Part shown: positions 13,689 to 23,774 of the stretch, piece after piece
Position numbering within the stretch: the stretch's first letter is position 1
Layout: each line of letters begins with the position of its first letter
From: Archangium violaceum
Lineage (GTDB): Bacteria > Myxococcota > Myxococcia > Myxococcales > Myxococcaceae
Assembly (NCBI RefSeq): GCF_016859125.1
Contig: NZ_CP069338.1
Span: 1,116,001-1,180,000 of the forward strand
Reading direction: 5' to 3'
DNA length: 64,000 nt
Program-made: the position numbers and the translations under genes
The notes under the pieces: model-generated
Databases searched by the model: none
Seen by the model: the letters and a program-made list of their open reading frames with translations, nothing else
What the model was told of the DNA's origin: nothing

Positions 13689-16600
13689 ATGGCGGAGGGC
13701 TACGAACAGACTGGACCCTCTCTGGAAGGGGCGCACCCTGGCAGGCGACTGGGCAACCGCTTCGAGCTCACCCAGCGCATCAAGCAGGGCCGTGGCATCA
13801 CCACGTGGCTCGGGGTGGACCTGCACACCGGAGCGCGTCTTGTCATCAAGACGACCTCCGCCGTGTCTCTCGTGCCCACCGCCCGGCAGCGGCTGGAGCA
13901 CGAGGCCAGTGTGTTGCGTACCTTGCGCAGCCCCTACCTGGTGCCCGTCTTGCATTTCGGAACGGGTGGGGACCTGCTCTTCCTGGTGACGCCGCTCGTC
14001 CCCGGGGTGTCGCTCCAGGAACGGCTCACCAGTGGCACCCTGTCCGTGCCCGAGGCCCTCATCGTGGGCCAGTGTGTGCTGGCCGCGCTCGCCGAGGCCC
14101 ACGCCCACGGCATCCTCCACCGGGACGTGAAGCCCTCCAACATCATCGTGGAGGGCAGCCCCACCCTCACCCGCGCCACCCTGGTGGACTTCGGACTGGC
14201 ACGCAGTGAACGGTTGGATCCGTCCTTGAGAGACCTGCCGGTGGGCACCGCGCGCTATCTGTCTCCCGAGCAGGCCGGGCTCCTCAACCGTCCGGTGGAG
14301 GCGCCCTCGGACCTGTACGCGCTGGGCGCCGTCCTCTTCGAGACACTCGCCGGGCACCCGGCCTTCGATGGCGCCTCCGTGGGAGAGGTGCTGCGCCAGC
14401 ACCTGGCCGCGCGGCCCCGTCTGCGCAGCGTGGGCATCGAGGTGCCCCGCGCCCTGGAGGAGGTCGTCGCGCGGCTGCTGCAGACGGACCCACAGGACCG
14501 CTACCAGTCCGCGGAGTCCGCGCGAGAGGACCTGGGCGCCATCGAGGTGGCGCTGGCTCGTGGCGAGCAGGATCCGGAGCTGGTGGCGGGCGCGCACGAC
14601 ATGCGCCACAGCCTCACCGAGCCCTCCTTCGTGGGCCGCCACGACGAGTTGGCGCTGCTGGAGCGTGAGCTGGAGCGCTCGCGCTCCGAGCCTGGACGGC
14701 TGCTGGTGGTGGAGGCCGAGAGCGGCGGAGGCAAGAGCCGGCTGCTGGAGGAGTTCGCCACGCGCGCCCGCCAACACCGCGCCTGGCTGTTGCAGGGCCA
14801 GGCCGTGGCCCAGTCCGCGCAACGGCCCTTCCAGCTCTTCACGGACGTGGCCACGGGGATCGCCACGGCGGCCAGGGAGCGGCCCGCGTTGGCGGAGCTG
14901 CTGCGCGAGCGGTTGGTGGAGCAGGCCGCGGCGGTATGTATGGTGCTGCCCCAGCTACAGCCGGTACTACGCCCCGCCCAGCAGCAGGGCCTGGGTCCCG
15001 AGTCGCTGGGCGAGAGCCGCGGCATCTGGGCCCTCACCACGCTGTTGGGCGCGCTGGGCACGGAGTCGGAGCCGGCGGTGGTGCTGCTCGAGGACTGCCA
15101 GTGGGCCGATGAGCCGACGCTCCGGGCGCTGGAGAACTGGCAGCAGGCGCGCCGGGACACGGTGGGGCACGTGATGATCGCCGTGTCCTTCCGCACCGAG
15201 GAGGTGGGGCCCGGGCACGTGCTGCGCCGGCTCCACCCGGACGCCCACCTGCGACTGGCGGCCTTCGGAACCACGGAGGTGGTGCGGATGCTGGAGTCCA
15301 TGGCCGGCACCCTGCCCCGCGAGGCCACGGAGATGGTGGGGCGCCTGTCCGAGGGCAATCCCTTCATGGCCTCGGCGGTGCTGCATGGGCTGGTGGAGGA
15401 CGGCGCGCTGGTGCCGGGTCCACGGGGCTGGCAGGTGGAGCCCGAGGCCATGGCGCACGTGCGCTCCTCGAGACAGGCGGCCTCCTTCCTGGTGCGCCGG
15501 TTGAAGCTGCTGCCGCCCGAGGCGCTGCGCCTGTTGTCCGTGGGCGCTGTGCTGGGCAAGAGCTTCGACCTGGAGCGGGTGGCCTCGCTGTCGGACACGC
15601 CTCGCGAGCAGGTCGTCAGCGCGCTCATGGAGCCGCGGCGGCGGCACATGCTGTGGGAGGGCAGCAACGGCCGCTACACCTTCGTCCACGACAAGCTGCG
15701 CGAGGCCCTGCTGGGACTGCTACGGCCCGAACAGCGCCGGGAGCTGCACCGGCTGGCGGCGCGCTCCATCGCGGCCAATCCGCCCGTGGACCCATTCGAG
15801 CTCGCCTACCACTTCGACGCGGCGGGTGAGCATACCCAGGCCCTCCCCTATGCCCTGGTGGCCGCCGAGCGGGCGCGGCAGCAGTTCGCCCTGGAGACGG
15901 CGGAGAACAACTACCGCATGGCCGAGCGCGGCGCGGCGCGGGCCGATGCGGGCACCCGCTTCCGCATCTTCGCCGGGTTGGGAGACGTGTTGATGCTCCG
16001 TGGCCGCTACGACGCCGCCCAACAGCAATTCGAGCTGGCCCAGTCACTGGCCCGCGACAGGCGGGAGCAGGCCCGCCTCTGGTCCAAGCTGGGCGAGCTG
16101 GCGTTCAAGCTCTACAACAAGGAGGAGGCCGACGCGGCACTGAAGCAGGGACTGAAGTTGTTGGGGCGGTGGGTTCCCCGCTCCAACGTCTCGGCCGCGA
16201 TGGGCGCCCTCTGGGAGCTCATGGTGCAGGCGGGACACACGTTGATGCCGAACCTGCTGACGGGACGACGCTCGCTGGAGAACGGCGAGGAGGACCTGCT
16301 CGCCGTGCATTTCTACAGCCGCCTGACGTACAGCAGCTGGTACTTCGGCAGCCCCATCGCCACCTTCTGGACCCACCTGCGCGAGGTGAACACGGCCGAG
16401 CGCTACCCGCCCACCCTCGAGCTCGCCCAGGCCTATTCGGAGCACGCCCCCATGCTCACCATGGTGCCGTGGTTCAGCCGGGCGACCGCCTACGCGGAGA
16501 AGTCGCTCGCGATCCGCCGGGAGCTGGGCGACATCTGGGGCCAGGGCCAATCGCTCCACTTCTACGGGCTGGGCCTCTATGCCGCGGGCCGCTTCGAGGA

Positions 16601-18686
16601 GTCCATCGAGAAGTGCAGCGAGGCGGTGCGGCTGCTGCAACGCACGGGAGACCAGTGGGAGGTCAACAACGCCCACTACCAGTACGCCATGGCCCTCTAC
16701 CGGCTGGGCCGGTTGAAGGAGGCACTGGAGTCCGCCCAGCGGCTGCACGGAGCGGCGCTGGCCATCGGTGACCAGTACGCGGTGCGGCTGGCCCTGGAGG
16801 TCTGGGCGAAGGCGTCCCTGGGGCACATCCCCTACAGCCTGCTGGAGGGCTCGCTGGCCAACCCCGGCCAGGACACGCAGACGCATGCCAACACCCTGCT
16901 GGCCGAGGCGCTGCGCCGGCTGCGCGAGGGAGACACCGCGGGCGCGGTGACGATGTTGGAGAAGGCCGACAAGCTGGTGGAGCAGGCCCACCTGCGGCAG
17001 GAGTACGTGGCCCCCATCGTGCCCTGGCTGGTGACCGCGCTGCGCATGCACGCCGAGAGCATCTCCCCGCTCGCGCCCACGGTGCGCGCGCAATGGATGA
17101 AGCGGGCGGAGAAGGTGGCGCGGCGCGCCCACTCCCTGGCGCGCAGCTACCGCAACAACCTCGCCCACGCGCTGCGTGAGCGGGGACTGCTGGCCGCCAT
17201 GTCCGGCCATCCGCGCCGGGCCCGCCGCTGGCTGGAGCAGAGCCTGAAGGCCGCCGAGGAATTGAAGATGCGCTACGAGCGCGCCCTGACGCTCCAGGCG
17301 CTCGGCCGCGTGGGCAAGGAGCTCGGTTGGACGGGAACCTCCGCCTGGCAGGAGGAGGCCACGCGCGAGCTCCAGGAGATGGAGCAGGACCTGGGCACCG
17401 AGCCGCGCGAAACCGAAGGGATGACGGAGCACCCGGGGACGCTGTCGCTGGTGGACCGCTTCCCCCGGGTGCTGGACGCGGGCCGCCGCATCGCCTCGGC
17501 CCTCACCCGCGAGGCGGTATTCGAGGCCGTGCGTCAGTCCATGATGGAGCTGCTGCGCGCGGAGCACTGCGTGGTGTTCACCCCGGAGACGATGCTGCCC
17601 GAGGACCAGCTCGCGGCGGCGGGCGTGGGCCGCACCGCCATTGGCAGGGCCATGGAGACGGGGCGCCCGGCGGTGATGGGCCAGGGCATGCCCGGTGGGG
17701 TGAGCGAGAGCATGGAGATGCTGGGGGTGCGCTCGCTCTTGTGCGCGCCCATCCAGGTGCGCGGCAAGACGGTGGCGTGCGTGTGCGTCAGCCACCGGCA
17801 GGTGGGCGAGCTCTTCGGCGAGGACGAGGAGCGCCTGGCCTCCTTCGTCTGCATCCTGGCCGGCGCCGCGCTGGAGAACGCCGAGGGCTTCGAGCAGATG
17901 GCCGCCCTCTCCGAGGAGCGGGGCCGGCTCTACCGCGAGGAGCAGGAGGCGGTGCGGCGCCGCGACGACTTCCTCTCCATCGCCGCGCACGAGCTGAAGA
18001 CGCCCCTCACCTCACTGCAGCTCCACCTGCAGGGCCTGATGAACCAGGTGCGCCAGGGGATGGAGCGGCTGCCCCCGGAGCGGCTCGGCGCCAAGCTGGA
18101 GTCGGCCAACCTCCAGACACAGCGCCTGGGCAAGCTGGTGAACGAGCTGTTGGACATCTCGCGCATCGCCCAGGGGCAGATGCTGGGCAAGCTCGAGGAC
18201 GTGGACCTGGTGCAGGTGGTGCACGGCGTCGTCGAGCGCTCGCGCGAGGCACTGTCACGGGCCGAGTGCGAGCTGCGGCTCCACCTGCCCCCCAGCATGG
18301 TGGGCCACTGGGACGCCATGCGGTTGGAGCAGGTGGTGCTCAACCTGCTCACCAACGCGACGAAGTACGGCGCGGGCCGGCCCATCGACGTCACCCTGGA
18401 GGGCGATGCCAACCAGGCCCGGCTGCGGGTGCGTGACGAGGGCATCGGCATCGCCGAGGAGGATGCGGCGCGCATCTTCGAGCGCTTCGAGCGCGCCGTG
18501 TCCGTGCGCCACTACGGTGGCTTCGGCATCGGGCTGTGGATCGTCCGGGAGATCGTCCAGGCGCTCGGCGGCACCATCGAGGTGGAGAGCGCCCCGGGCA
18601 AGGGCGCCACCTTCACCATCACCCTGCCCCGCCGCGGCCCCGAGGCGTCCCGGAACGGCAACGGGAACGGAGCTAGCGACGCGTGA
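13689..18686 (+). CDS. Giant hybrid: Ser/Thr kinase-ATPase-TPR-GAF-histidine kinase
   Basis: A 1,665-residue soluble signalling protein. Domains in order are a Ser/Thr kinase (about 20-285; Lys54, HRDVKPSN at 144, DFG at 167), an AAA/NACHT-like ATPase (about 310-620; Walker A ESGGGKSR near 345 and an LLEDCQWAD Walker B), a long helical TPR-like region (about 680-1230), a GAF domain (about 1268-1400), then HisKA with His1434 in HELKTPL and HATPase_c with DEGIGIAEEDAARIFERFER and GFGIGLWIV. The glycine loop of the first kinase is atypical (IKQGRGITTWLG). The family is known from myxobacteria and cyanobacteria. It may relay signals from Ser/Thr to two-component circuits. GGGGAGGG precedes ATG 13689. 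The gene overlaps the convergent methyltransferase gene by 14 bp. Confidence 0.88.
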   Translation: MAEGYEQTGPSLEGAHPGRRLGNRFELTQRIKQGRGITTWLGVDLHTGARLVIKTTSAVSLVPTARQRLEHEASVLRTLRSPYLVPVLHFGTGGDLLFLVTPLVPGVSLQERLTSGTLSVPEALIVGQCVLAALAEAHAHGILHRDVKPSNIIVEGSPTLTRATLVDFGLARSERLDPSLRDLPVGTARYLSPEQAGLLNRPVEAPSDLYALGAVLFETLAGHPAFDGASVGEVLRQHLAARPRLRSVGIEVPRALEEVVARLLQTDPQDRYQSAESAREDLGAIEVALARGEQDPELVAGAHDMRHSLTEPSFVGRHDELALLERELERSRSEPGRLLVVEAESGGGKSRLLEEFATRARQHRAWLLQGQAVAQSAQRPFQLFTDVATGIATAARERPALAELLRERLVEQAAAVCMVLPQLQPVLRPAQQQGLGPESLGESRGIWALTTLLGALGTESEPAVVLLEDCQWADEPTLRALENWQQARRDTVGHVMIAVSFRTEEVGPGHVLRRLHPDAHLRLAAFGTTEVVRMLESMAGTLPREATEMVGRLSEGNPFMASAVLHGLVEDGALVPGPRGWQVEPEAMAHVRSSRQAASFLVRRLKLLPPEALRLLSVGAVLGKSFDLERVASLSDTPREQVVSALMEPRRRHMLWEGSNGRYTFVHDKLREALLGLLRPEQRRELHRLAARSIAANPPVDPFELAYHFDAAGEHTQALPYALVAAERARQQFALETAENNYRMAERGAARADAGTRFRIFAGLGDVLMLRGRYDAAQQQFELAQSLARDRREQARLWSKLGELAFKLYNKEEADAALKQGLKLLGRWVPRSNVSAAMGALWELMVQAGHTLMPNLLTGRRSLENGEEDLLAVHFYSRLTYSSWYFGSPIATFWTHLREVNTAERYPPTLELAQAYSEHAPMLTMVPWFSRATAYAEKSLAIRRELGDIWGQGQSLHFYGLGLYAAGRFEESIEKCSEAVRLLQRTGDQWEVNNAHYQYAMALYRLGRLKEALESAQRLHGAALAIGDQYAVRLALEVWAKASLGHIPYSLLEGSLANPGQDTQTHANTLLAEALRRLREGDTAGAVTMLEKADKLVEQAHLRQEYVAPIVPWLVTALRMHAESISPLAPTVRAQWMKRAEKVARRAHSLARSYRNNLAHALRERGLLAAMSGHPRRARRWLEQSLKAAEELKMRYERALTLQALGRVGKELGWTGTSAWQEEATRELQEMEQDLGTEPRETEGMTEHPGTLSLVDRFPRVLDAGRRIASALTREAVFEAVRQSMMELLRAEHCVVFTPETMLPEDQLAAAGVGRTAIGRAMETGRPAVMGQGMPGGVSESMEMLGVRSLLCAPIQVRGKTVACVCVSHRQVGELFGEDEERLASFVCILAGAALENAEGFEQMAALSEERGRLYREEQEAVRRRDDFLSIAAHELKTPLTSLQLHLQGLMNQVRQGMERLPPERLGAKLESANLQTQRLGKLVNELLDISRIAQGQMLGKLEDVDLVQVVHGVVERSREALSRAECELRLHLPPSMVGHWDAMRLEQVVLNLLTNATKYGAGRPIDVTLEGDANQARLRVRDEGIGIAEEDAARIFERFERAVSVRHYGGFGIGLWIVREIVQALGGTIEVESAPGKGATFTITLPRRGPEASRNGNGNGASDA

Positions 18687-21264: not shown

Positions 21265-23172
21265 TCAGCGAAGACGGAAGGGAATCTTCACCACGCGATA
21301 GACGGAGATGGGCCGCCCATCCAGGAGCGCTGGCGAGTAACGCCACGTGCGGACCGCGGCGATCGCCGAGGAGGCGAACGGCTCCTCTCCCCTCATCACC
21401 GAGATGTCGCCCACGCGCCCGTCCTCGGTCACGATGATCTTCAGGATGACGAGGCCCTCCCGACCCGAAGCCCGCGCGGACTGGGGGAATTCGGGCTGGA
21501 CGTTGGACGCCAGCTCCCTCGGAGCCGTGGCCTTCTCCGGAAGTTGGATGGGACCCACGGGGCGCGCGGGCTTCTCCACCAGGGCGGGGCGTTGCACCTG
21601 CGCGGGAGGACGCTCGGAGGCGAGCATCTCCGGCGTGCTGAAGTCCGCCACCGCCCCGGCGTAGGCGGCGCCCTGCCGCGCCGAGGAGCCCGACACCTGG
21701 GCCACACGCGAGGCCGGCTGCTTTCGCAGGCGCTGGGTGAAGAGCACATCCCCGGAGCCGCCCGCGAGCGCGCTCTCCGTCTGGTACCCGTCGAGCACGA
21801 AGGTCAACTCCGCGGTGGCCACCCCGTTGGAACCCGGGGGGACGTCGAGCACGAGTGGCGTGGAGCCTCGCTCCTGGCCCAGCCAGAAGACGCGCGCACC
21901 CGAGGGCTCACTGGTGATGAAGAAACGAACCGGAGCGGGAGCGGGCGCGGGGGCCTCGGCGACCGGCGTGGGAGCGGGCGGGCTCGTGGGAACGGGCTCC
22001 GGACGACGCCACAGGGCCACTCCGGCACCAGCCCCCACGAGCAGCACCGCCAGGGCGACGCCCATCCACGGGTTCGTGCGTCGGGGTGGAGCCGGTGGCT
22101 GGACCGGAGCGGAAGGCCGCTGCGCGCCACTGGCCGGAGGGACGTCCAGGCTGATGTCCAACACGAGCGTCCCCGCCTCCGGACCCTGCGCGGGGGGCGC
22201 GGGCAGCGGGGTGAGGAACGGCGAGCTGATGGGGCTGGAATCTCCCACGCGACCGAGCACCTCGCGCAGCGCCTCGAGCAGCTCGTCCATGGAGGCGTAG
22301 CGTGCCTGGGGATCCTTCTCAAGACAGCGAAGGACGAGGGCCTCCACGCGCTCGGGGATGACGAGCCCGGGCTGCAGGTCCCGGAAGCGCGGGGGCGACA
22401 CCTTGTGGTGCGCGAAGAGAAGCTCGAGCGTGTCCTTGGAGACGAAGGGCGGACGGCCCATCAGCATGTGGTACGTGACGACACCGAGCGAGTAGATGTC
22501 GCTGCGCACGTCCGCGACGTTACGGGCCTGCTCGGGTGACATGTACACCGGTGAGCCCAGGAAGGTGCCGCTCTGGGTGATGGCCGGAGTGGCCTCGGCT
22601 CCCGCCCCTTCTGGAGAGAAGGGCTTCACCAGACCGAAGTCGAGCACCTTGACGTGGTCGCGGTCTCCATCCGCCACCAGCATCACGTTGGCGGGCTTGA
22701 GATCCCGGTGCACCACCCCCAGCCGGTGCGCCTCGCGCAGCGAGAAACAGACCTGCCGGGCGAGCTCCATCGCCCGGGGCCACGGCAGCGGCCCCTCGGC
22801 GAGCACCTCCGAGAGCGTGCGGCCCTCGATGTACTCCATGGCGATGAAGCAGATGCCGTCCTCCGTCTGGCCATAGTCGATGACGGTGACGGTGTTGGGG
22901 CTGCGCAGCTTCGCGGTGAGCGAGGCCTCGCGGATGAAGCGCTGGAGGAAACCCGGATCCTTGCTGGTGGGGAACGTGGGGCTCAGGATCTTGAGCGCCA
23001 CCACGCGATCCAACGGGACCTGGAGCGCGCGGTACACGCGGCCCATGCCGCCCTCTCCGATGGGGGCCTGCACCAGGAAGCGCCCCAGCAGGGTACGACC
23101 GAGCAGCGGATCCTCCGACGGAGGCGGAGGCGCGGGCTCATCGGTATTGGGAGGGCGGGGTTGGGTCTCCAT
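21265..23172 (-). CDS. Transmembrane Ser/Thr kinase with PEGA-like and TonB C-terminal domains
   Basis: The product has 635 residues. A Hanks-type kinase covers about 30-310 (IGEGGMGRVYRA loop, Lys61, HRDLKPANV at 155, DFG at 178). After a Pro-rich linker there is one transmembrane helix (about 370-387), an extracytoplasmic PEGA-like domain (about 414-485, SEPSGARVFW), a second Pro-rich linker, and a TonB C-terminal domain (545-635) with REGLVILKIIVTEDGRVGDI and AAVRTWRYSPALLDGRPISVYRVVKIPF. TonB C-terminal domains normally bridge to outer-membrane receptors. The fusion suggests a kinase that senses or touches an outer-membrane partner. GGAGG lies 6 bp before ATG 23172. It is divergent from the gene at 23397. 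Confidence 0.88.
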   Translation of the reverse strand: METQPRPPNTDEPAPPPPSEDPLLGRTLLGRFLVQAPIGEGGMGRVYRALQVPLDRVVALKILSPTFPTSKDPGFLQRFIREASLTAKLRSPNTVTVIDYGQTEDGICFIAMEYIEGRTLSEVLAEGPLPWPRAMELARQVCFSLREAHRLGVVHRDLKPANVMLVADGDRDHVKVLDFGLVKPFSPEGAGAEATPAITQSGTFLGSPVYMSPEQARNVADVRSDIYSLGVVTYHMLMGRPPFVSKDTLELLFAHHKVSPPRFRDLQPGLVIPERVEALVLRCLEKDPQARYASMDELLEALREVLGRVGDSSPISSPFLTPLPAPPAQGPEAGTLVLDISLDVPPASGAQRPSAPVQPPAPPRRTNPWMGVALAVLLVGAGAGVALWRRPEPVPTSPPAPTPVAEAPAPAPAPVRFFITSEPSGARVFWLGQERGSTPLVLDVPPGSNGVATAELTFVLDGYQTESALAGGSGDVLFTQRLRKQPASRVAQVSGSSARQGAAYAGAVADFSTPEMLASERPPAQVQRPALVEKPARPVGPIQLPEKATAPRELASNVQPEFPQSARASGREGLVILKIIVTEDGRVGDISVMRGEEPFASSAIAAVRTWRYSPALLDGRPISVYRVVKIPFRLR

Positions 23173-23396: not shown

Positions 23397-23774
23397 ATGC
23401 CCTTTCAGATCACCGTCTACGAGGAAGACCGCATCATCGACGTCGTCTATCCCCCGCAGCCCACGGCGGAGGACGTGACGGACTACCTCAAGCGCATCCG
23501 CGAGACGATCGCCTACATGAACGGCCCGTGGAGCGCGCTGGTGGACCAGGGACAGCTGCGCGTGATGCCGCCGGAGATGGTGGCCACCATGGCCAGCCTC
23601 AACGCCTACGCGCAGCTGCACGGCATGAAGCGCTCGGCGCGCATCGTGAGCGACGCCGCCTCCGGCCTCCAGGCCTGGCGCATGACGAAGAAGGCCATGC
23701 TCTCCATCCCCACGCGCACCTTCGAGACCCGCGAGGCCGCCCTGGCCTGGCTGCGCAACCCCGACGACGAGTAG
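23397..23774 (+). CDS. Hypothetical 125-aa protein
   Basis: A small soluble protein with alternating beta-alpha pattern: MPFQITVYEEDRIIDVVYP, then a helix TAEDVTDYLKRIRETIAYM, then WSALVDQGQLRVMPPEMV, ending in FETREAALAWLRNP. The arrangement resembles STAS-like/SpoIIAA-like proteins often annotated as hypothetical in myxobacteria; the ending is typical of that fold. No catalytic motif is visible. The ribosome site is weak. It is divergent from the kinase-TonB gene, separated by 224 bp with no other gene. Confidence 0.65.
   Translation: MPFQITVYEEDRIIDVVYPPQPTAEDVTDYLKRIRETIAYMNGPWSALVDQGQLRVMPPEMVATMASLNAYAQLHGMKRSARIVSDAASGLQAWRMTKKAMLSIPTRTFETREAALAWLRNPDDE

Follow-up and report, generated by a model that had tools for sequence, protein, structure and literature searches.

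A Myxobacterial Ser/Thr Kinase Family with at Least Two Kinds of Predicted TonB Tail

The window, by which the whole stretch of 64,000 nucleotides of Archangium violaceum DNA analyzed here is meant, encodes a protein that can be identified by its sequence as a transmembrane Hanks kinase whose sensor end is unusual and informative. As judged from profiles, alignments, and trees, this protein belongs to a kinase family in which TonB tails of at least two kinds occur, and one kinase chassis appears to carry tails of different origin, obtained through exchange or separate acquisition. Beyond the domain order already given in a previous sequence-only reading, the analysis found a second kinase with the tail of another TonB, the parent Ton operons, and the lack of the parental N-terminus and helix in the kinases. 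The window protein could be a non-energised, trans-envelope sensor kinase that docks on the TonB boxes of outer-membrane transporters, a proposal about evenly balanced between right and wrong, in which we infer the docking, the partner, the effect on the kinase, and the topology. Among four explanations, this receptor-sensing reading is the best, though unproven.

Gene and Domain Layout

The sequence-only reading had located the gene at 21265–23172 and said nothing of its strand. These limits are right; the gene lies on the minus strand and runs from the ATG at 23172 down to the stop at 21265, encoding 635 amino acids, and the plus-strand frame across the same interval is interrupted by stops. 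In the alignment, this ATG is close to the start in several orthologues, and others start later. The features of the gene are the following:

21265..23172, minus strand: whole gene, Ser/Thr kinase with a TonB C-terminal tail, 635 aa (open frame, Pfam, full-length orthologue alignment)
22273..23091, minus strand: kinase domain, residues ~28–300 (Pkinase E 1.4e-43, motifs, 4ow8 match)
22075..22272, minus strand: juxtamembrane stretch, residues 301–366 (poorly conserved in the alignment except for an LDIS motif)
22009..22068, minus strand: predicted single membrane helix, residues ~369–388 (hydropathy)
21721..21930, minus strand: PEGA-like domain, residues ~415–484 (sub-threshold Pfam match, paralogue L087, block pLDDT mostly 71–89)
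21553..21720, minus strand: fast-changing linker, residues 485–540 (low identity, dN/dS)
21268..21552, minus strand: TonB C-terminal domain with its N-terminal extension, residues 541–635 (TonB_C profile, fold)
21271..21303, minus strand: last TonB strand, residues 624–634 (strand in both models, lowest entropy of the domain)

The architecture described in the earlier reading, with a kinase, a helix, a PEGA-like part, and a TonB C-terminal domain, is borne out by Pfam, hydropathy, and motifs and, for the PEGA-like part, by homology to L087. The Pkinase profile matches residues 35–298 (E 1.4e-43, 149.6 bits, above the cut-off of 31.7), and the motifs GEGGMG (residue 39), ALK (59), HRDLKPAN (155), DFG (178), and SPEQ (212) are in place; by profile and catalytic motifs, the protein is thus assigned to the Hanks-type Ser/Thr kinases. 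The TonB_C profile matches residues 559–634 (E 5.9e-16, 59.1 bits, above the cut-off of 24.6). The PEGA match (residues 418–451) scores 18.4 bits, below the curated cut-off of 20.8, whereas the homologous segment of L087 exceeds it with 24.5 bits, so that the label "PEGA-like" rests on homology. The hydrophobic helix reaches a 19-residue Kyte–Doolittle maximum of 2.13, and no second membrane helix was detected in the chain, no other 19-residue segment scoring 1.6 or more.

The arm between the helix and TonB_C comprises 170 residues and, if extended, should by our own estimate be long enough to cross the periplasm. Identity between the window protein and its orthologues is 0.30 in the juxtamembrane stretch and 0.21 in the linker, and dN/dS is 0.21–0.43 for the linker versus 0.06–0.14 for TonB_C in the four orthologue pairs tested. 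The fusion is not due to chance, because there are relatives with the whole layout and the TonB part shows the latter dN/dS range. In the whole-chain model (mean pLDDT 52.9), the kinase part is nearest to PknA/PknB, with 4ow8 (PknA) as a match at low model confidence (Z 16.7, rmsd 4.0, 240 residues). Since this mean pLDDT is low and the fold search covered the kinase part only, the TonB part was folded alone.

Two Tail Types on One Kinase Chassis

The genome of the window (12.68 Mb) yields 21 TonB_C matches, among which the window's tail, here called the first type, is 65% identical to that of the stand-alone TonB L005, the next own-genome domain reaching 35%. A second kinase of this genome, L062, has the same order of kinase, helix, PEGA-like part, linker, and TonB_C and is 52% identical to the window kinase over residues 11–625, whereas its tail is 28% identical to the window's tail and 60% to that of the TonB L012, with the next usable domain at 54%; the percentages of L020 and L021, derived from short alignments, were left out of this ranking. 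A third family kinase, L087 (about 801 kb on contig C1; L087:4683–6311), keeps the PEGA-like part and has no terminal TonB_C.

The sequence-only reading had supposed that similar proteins may exist in myxobacteria, and they do. The first-type C-terminal half occurs in 14 of 96 genomes of the family, comprising 12 of the 27 of group g19, one of the six of the window's genus, and G051; in 13 of them, the match has at least 53% identity over nearly the entire half, and in G051, the fourteenth, it comes in two pieces. In G061, the first-type kinase gene (L100) is split into two adjoining frames by either mutation or sequencing error. Moreover, 27 relatives carry the second tail type, from 24 genomes and three genome-collection contigs; these loci were chosen from the match list, rather than by census, and the duplicates L095 (=L055) and L097 (=L054) were dropped. 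When 67 other Myxococcota genomes were searched with the C-terminal half, five of the six long frames read among 30 loci (L159, L162, L164, L172, and L174) matched both Pkinase and TonB_C, each above its cut-off, within a single frame outside the family, L159 with PEGA above its cut-off too. A motif scan requiring a lysine returned none of the 30 non-family loci, those kinases being without that lysine. The five proteins have other catalytic-loop variants and, thus, kinase–TonB_C proteins are probably recurrent. A literature search that left the myxobacterial kinome survey aside found no paper on kinase–TonB proteins, and the word "TonB" is absent from the main text of PMC7694542 and PMC11032199.

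When 11 first-type and nine second-type sequences were compared with each other, mean identity was 0.67 in the kinase, 0.57 in the PEGA-like part, and 0.27 in TonB_C; among ten first-type orthologues, the values are 0.84, 0.81, and 0.84, respectively. The kinase tree places 40 family rows in a single group (95/99) that excludes 15 other own-genome kinases. Within it, 11 rows make up a first-type clade (93/97) and 24 rows a second-type clade (91/93), with L098 and a set made up of L087 and three second-type kinases outside both. In the TonB_C tree, which was built without nine of the 15 stand-alone TonBs of relatives, first-type tails group with stand-alone TonBs of the L005 kind (19 rows, 98/98) and second-type tails group elsewhere, with L009, L012, and other own-genome proteins (35 rows, 96/81). 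G056 (L028) and the split gene of G061 were omitted from the trees. The idea that all kinase tails arose once and then drifted apart was rejected (AU test p 7e-5), the one-clade constraint costing 99.5 log units on a tree without nine own-genome rows, most of them long-branched. On this tree, the 12 first-type kinase tails lie on one side of a branch supported at 66/0 only, so that L098 may have acquired its tail separately. Discordance between the kinase and tail trees, together with the rejection of one tail clade, points to tails that differ in origin.

The TonB Domain and Its Last Strand

The TonB part, modelled alone from four sequences (mean pLDDT 77.5), has predicted strands at model residues 47–56, 61–69, and 99–108 and a helix at 74–82. 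Its best structural match is TonB in the FoxA complex (6i97; Z 11.6, rmsd 1.8, 87 residues), followed by Neisseria TonB (9ddz; Z 10.8), E. coli TonB (1u07; Z 10.4), and TonB in the BtuB (2gsk; Z 10.1) and FhuA (2grx; Z 8.1) complexes, with TolA entries at Z 3.6 to 6.6. The TonB matches run to the final model residue (110) and include the last strand. A TonB domain without a receptor-binding strand would have spoken against the sequence-only reading; the predicted fold follows receptor-bound TonB through that strand. A profile of 12 related domains also recovers TonB structures (2k9k, E 1e-9; 1u07, 5e-8; 2gsk, 9e-8; 2grx, 1e-7), and these sequence alignments end ahead of the last strand.

Residues 624–634 are what we take to be the counterpart of the receptor-binding strand of TonB. 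Their entropy in 12 kinases is 0.10, the lowest in the domain, the other elements lying at 0.43–0.59; in 11 stand-alone TonBs, it is 0.17, and seven of the 11 positions are invariant in both sets. Nevertheless, the strand also belongs to the fold, so its conservation may be partly structural.

Parent Ton Systems

L005 (C1:4017547) opens a run of TonB, ExbB, ExbD, ExbD, a receptor, and a 444 aa protein; in the window's genome, Pfam matches bear out ExbB, the two ExbDs, and the receptor, which has CarboxypepD_reg, Plug, and barrel domains. On the basis of gene sizes and sequence starts, this gene order is present in all 14 contexts viewed of the 17 loci (all except L135, L149, and L150), with one intervening gene in L146. 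L012 is followed downstream by ExbB, ExbD, and ExbD and is divergent from a 1044 aa receptor. Gene order suggests that the L005 run corresponds to MXAN_0276–0272 of M. xanthus and the L012 run to the Oar operon (MXAN_1450; ExbB1, MXAN_1448), a likening of gene orders and not of named M. xanthus sequences, with gene names taken from PMC6434023 and PMC8546572. According to the former, the C-terminal domains of TonB1, MXAN_0276, and MXAN_0820 interact with the N-terminal region of Oar, and the TonB box of Oar is reported to be important for PopC secretion.

The parent TonB also occurs in genomes without the kinase. In three g19 loci, the resident TonB reads WRF...IFKVPFRLKS versus WRY...VVKVPFRLR in the kinases of that group, so the partner of a kinase need not be the receptor of the parent TonB.

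Two further observations concern the surroundings of this operon. The 444 aa protein after the receptor (L061:3390–4724, minus strand) has similar-sized counterparts in the other loci viewed and gave no Pfam or NCBIfam match. In seven loci (L061, L133, and L140–L144), a kinase-like gene of about 1250–1280 aa is divergent from the TonB operon; it carries Pkinase and AAA_16 in L061 and is absent beside the operon in the g19 and g5 loci viewed.

Gene Neighbourhoods of the Kinases

The first-type kinase has no conserved neighbour, and three kinds of context were distinguished across 11 loci. In none of these loci, the window included, was an exbB, an exbD, or a receptor gene recognised nearby, as read from sequence starts and, for the window flanks, from Pfam. 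The window shares with the g19 loci L063, L064, and L067 the order and orientation of genes for a hybrid kinase, a methyltransferase, the kinase, a SpoIIAA-like protein, and a trypsin-like protein, with additional genes on either side of the kinase in the three g19 loci. Four other loci share a different context with a putative RND efflux gene, named by its sequence start, and three share none. By contrast, the second-type kinase is fixed in its surroundings: in nine of nine loci (L062 and L073–L080), it lies beside CheW, CheR, MCP, response-regulator, CheW, and CheA-type genes, whose domains were confirmed in L062, and is divergent from this one-receptor chemosensory cluster with its CheA–response-regulator hybrid.

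In the window, the SpoIIAA-like gene (23397–23774, plus strand) is divergent from the kinase gene. It is found near the kinase in all four syntenic loci, with a small gene in between in the three from g19, and its product is a possible candidate substrate. As a dedicated neighbour or substrate, it was set aside, being missing from the remaining seven of the 11 first-type loci read. The window also encodes (13689–18686, plus strand) a 1665 aa protein with Pkinase, AAA_16, TPR, GAF, HisKA, and HATPase domains, i.e., a Ser/Thr kinase and a histidine kinase within a single chain.

Proposed Mechanism and Alternatives

In the proposed mechanism, the kinase would lie in the cytoplasm, with one helix across the inner membrane, and the flexible arm and the PEGA-like domain would hold the TonB C-terminal domain out toward the outer membrane. 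There, this domain could dock on the TonB box or plug of a TonB-dependent transporter once the box is exposed; for the window kinase, the likeliest partner would be the CarboxypepD_reg receptor of the L005 operon. Docking may change the arm or the dimerisation of the kinase and, hence, its activity, so that the cell would be informed of a loaded transporter, and the different TonB tail of the relatives would switch which transporter is read. The tail of another TonB on the sister kinase is a hint that kinases of this kind monitor the state of specific transporters. The sequence-only reading had proposed that contact with an outer-membrane receptor may be coupled to phosphorylation, and such a coupling is also the explanation preferred here.

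Docking is supported by a TonB part that folds like receptor-bound TonB through a conserved last strand, by the closeness of the tail to an operonic TonB (65%), by the sister kinase with another TonB's tail together with the rejection of a single tail clade, and by the reported interaction with Oar of the C-terminal domain of MXAN_0276, which is matched to L005 through gene order only. The intact catalytic motifs support a sensor kinase. Docking is weakened by the lack of a conserved neighbour, with no exbB, exbD, or receptor recognised in the 11 loci, by the parent TonB occurring in genomes without the kinase, and by the profile match to E. coli TonB structures ending before the last strand.

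TonB_C has other uses in this genome, since it stands at the N-terminus of four receptors: in L003, L006, L008, and L011, it precedes the Plug domain of a TonB-dependent receptor, all above the Pfam cut-offs. It is also carried by proteins that read like lipoproteins. These occurrences favour a second explanation, in which TonB_C would be a general periplasmic adaptor for a non-transporter ligand (e.g., peptidoglycan, a lipoprotein, or another TonB_C or PEGA protein) and the kinase would sense the state of the envelope; a PEGA-like part as conserved as TonB_C (0.81 and 0.84) fits it as well. However, the first-type tail resembles the operonic TonB far more than any other own-genome domain (65% against 35%), and the receptor strand is the best conserved part of the tail. 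The adaptor is therefore judged unlikely, with perhaps a quarter of our belief behind it.

A third explanation is that the kinase is driven by ExbB/ExbD like TonB, a proton-driven pull on the receptor altering its activity. The N-in helix, the long arm, and the TonB domain are indeed ordered as in the parent TonB, whose operon also holds the genes for ExbB and two ExbDs. Nevertheless, in 16 parent-type TonBs, the identity of the genome's own sequence to the others is 0.79 for the first 16 residues and 0.62 for the helix, whereas the kinase helix shows 0.26 between the window protein and its orthologues, 0.48 among orthologues, and 0.18 between types; neither the parent's conserved N-terminus nor its helix is found in the kinases. 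The window protein thus does not classify, by sequence, as a TonB energy transducer, having no parent-like N-terminus or helix and no exbB or exbD recognised alongside, and an energised kinase is improbable. The histidine known from the helix of E. coli TonB does not decide the matter, because the parent TonB helix is also without histidine in the 16 aligned sequences, which made this comparison uninformative. Equally improbable is a tail that chiefly competes with TonB for receptors, the kinase adjusting transport instead of sensing, since competition alone needs no intact and conserved kinase, even if the tail is close to a resident TonB of the same genomes.

Receptor sensing by passive docking is favoured by the absence of the end presumed to couple TonB to ExbB/ExbD. 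With the receptor-gripping end present and the conserved TonB N-terminus and helix absent, the kinase would read transporters and not power them.

Comparison with Known Systems

The stand-alone TonB L005, which by gene order would correspond to MXAN_0276, shares with the window kinase the C-terminal domain and a near-identical last strand; it differs in lacking a kinase or PEGA-like part and in having the conserved N-terminus and helix. GltG and GltJ of the M. xanthus gliding machine resemble the window protein in their single helix and TonBC motifs, which, in PMC5349195, are proposed to contact outer-membrane proteins with possible TonB boxes. However, as described there, they are motility parts that interact with a TolQ-type motor and contain no Ser/Thr kinase.

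Among NCBIfam models, the window kinase scores best with the PknB/StkP-type PASTA kinase NF033483, at 285 bits, below the curated cut-off of 450 and over residues 25–309 only, in line with the PknA/PknB fold of the low-confidence model. PASTA kinases have one helix and an outer sensor part; in place of their PASTA repeats, the window protein has TonB_C. In transporter signalling of the FecA–FecR type, a signalling domain of the receptor acts with an anti-sigma factor. The window kinase would likewise report the state of a transporter to the cytoplasm, but through a TonB domain on a kinase, with no receptor signalling domain or anti-sigma factor.

Implications for Myxobacterial Signalling

Kinases are very numerous in myxobacteria, and few of their inputs are known. 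For the kinase described here, the input domain can be recognised, and the closest TonB has been identified along with its operon and receptor; from the two tails of the chassis, one can predict the transporter that each kinase would read. More tentatively, and with less confidence than in docking itself, there may be a myxobacterial class of TonB-box-reading kinases, in which a fixed chassis with the tail of a transporter's TonB would form a dedicated sensor of the loaded state, parallel to TonB, and the second-type kinase, beside its chemosensory cluster, would feed the state of a transporter (e.g., the protease exporter Oar) into behaviour and development. If true, this would be a route from the outer membrane to the cytoplasm without a receptor signalling domain or a sigma/anti-sigma pair and a new way for Gram-negative cells to sense the activity of their outer-membrane transporters.
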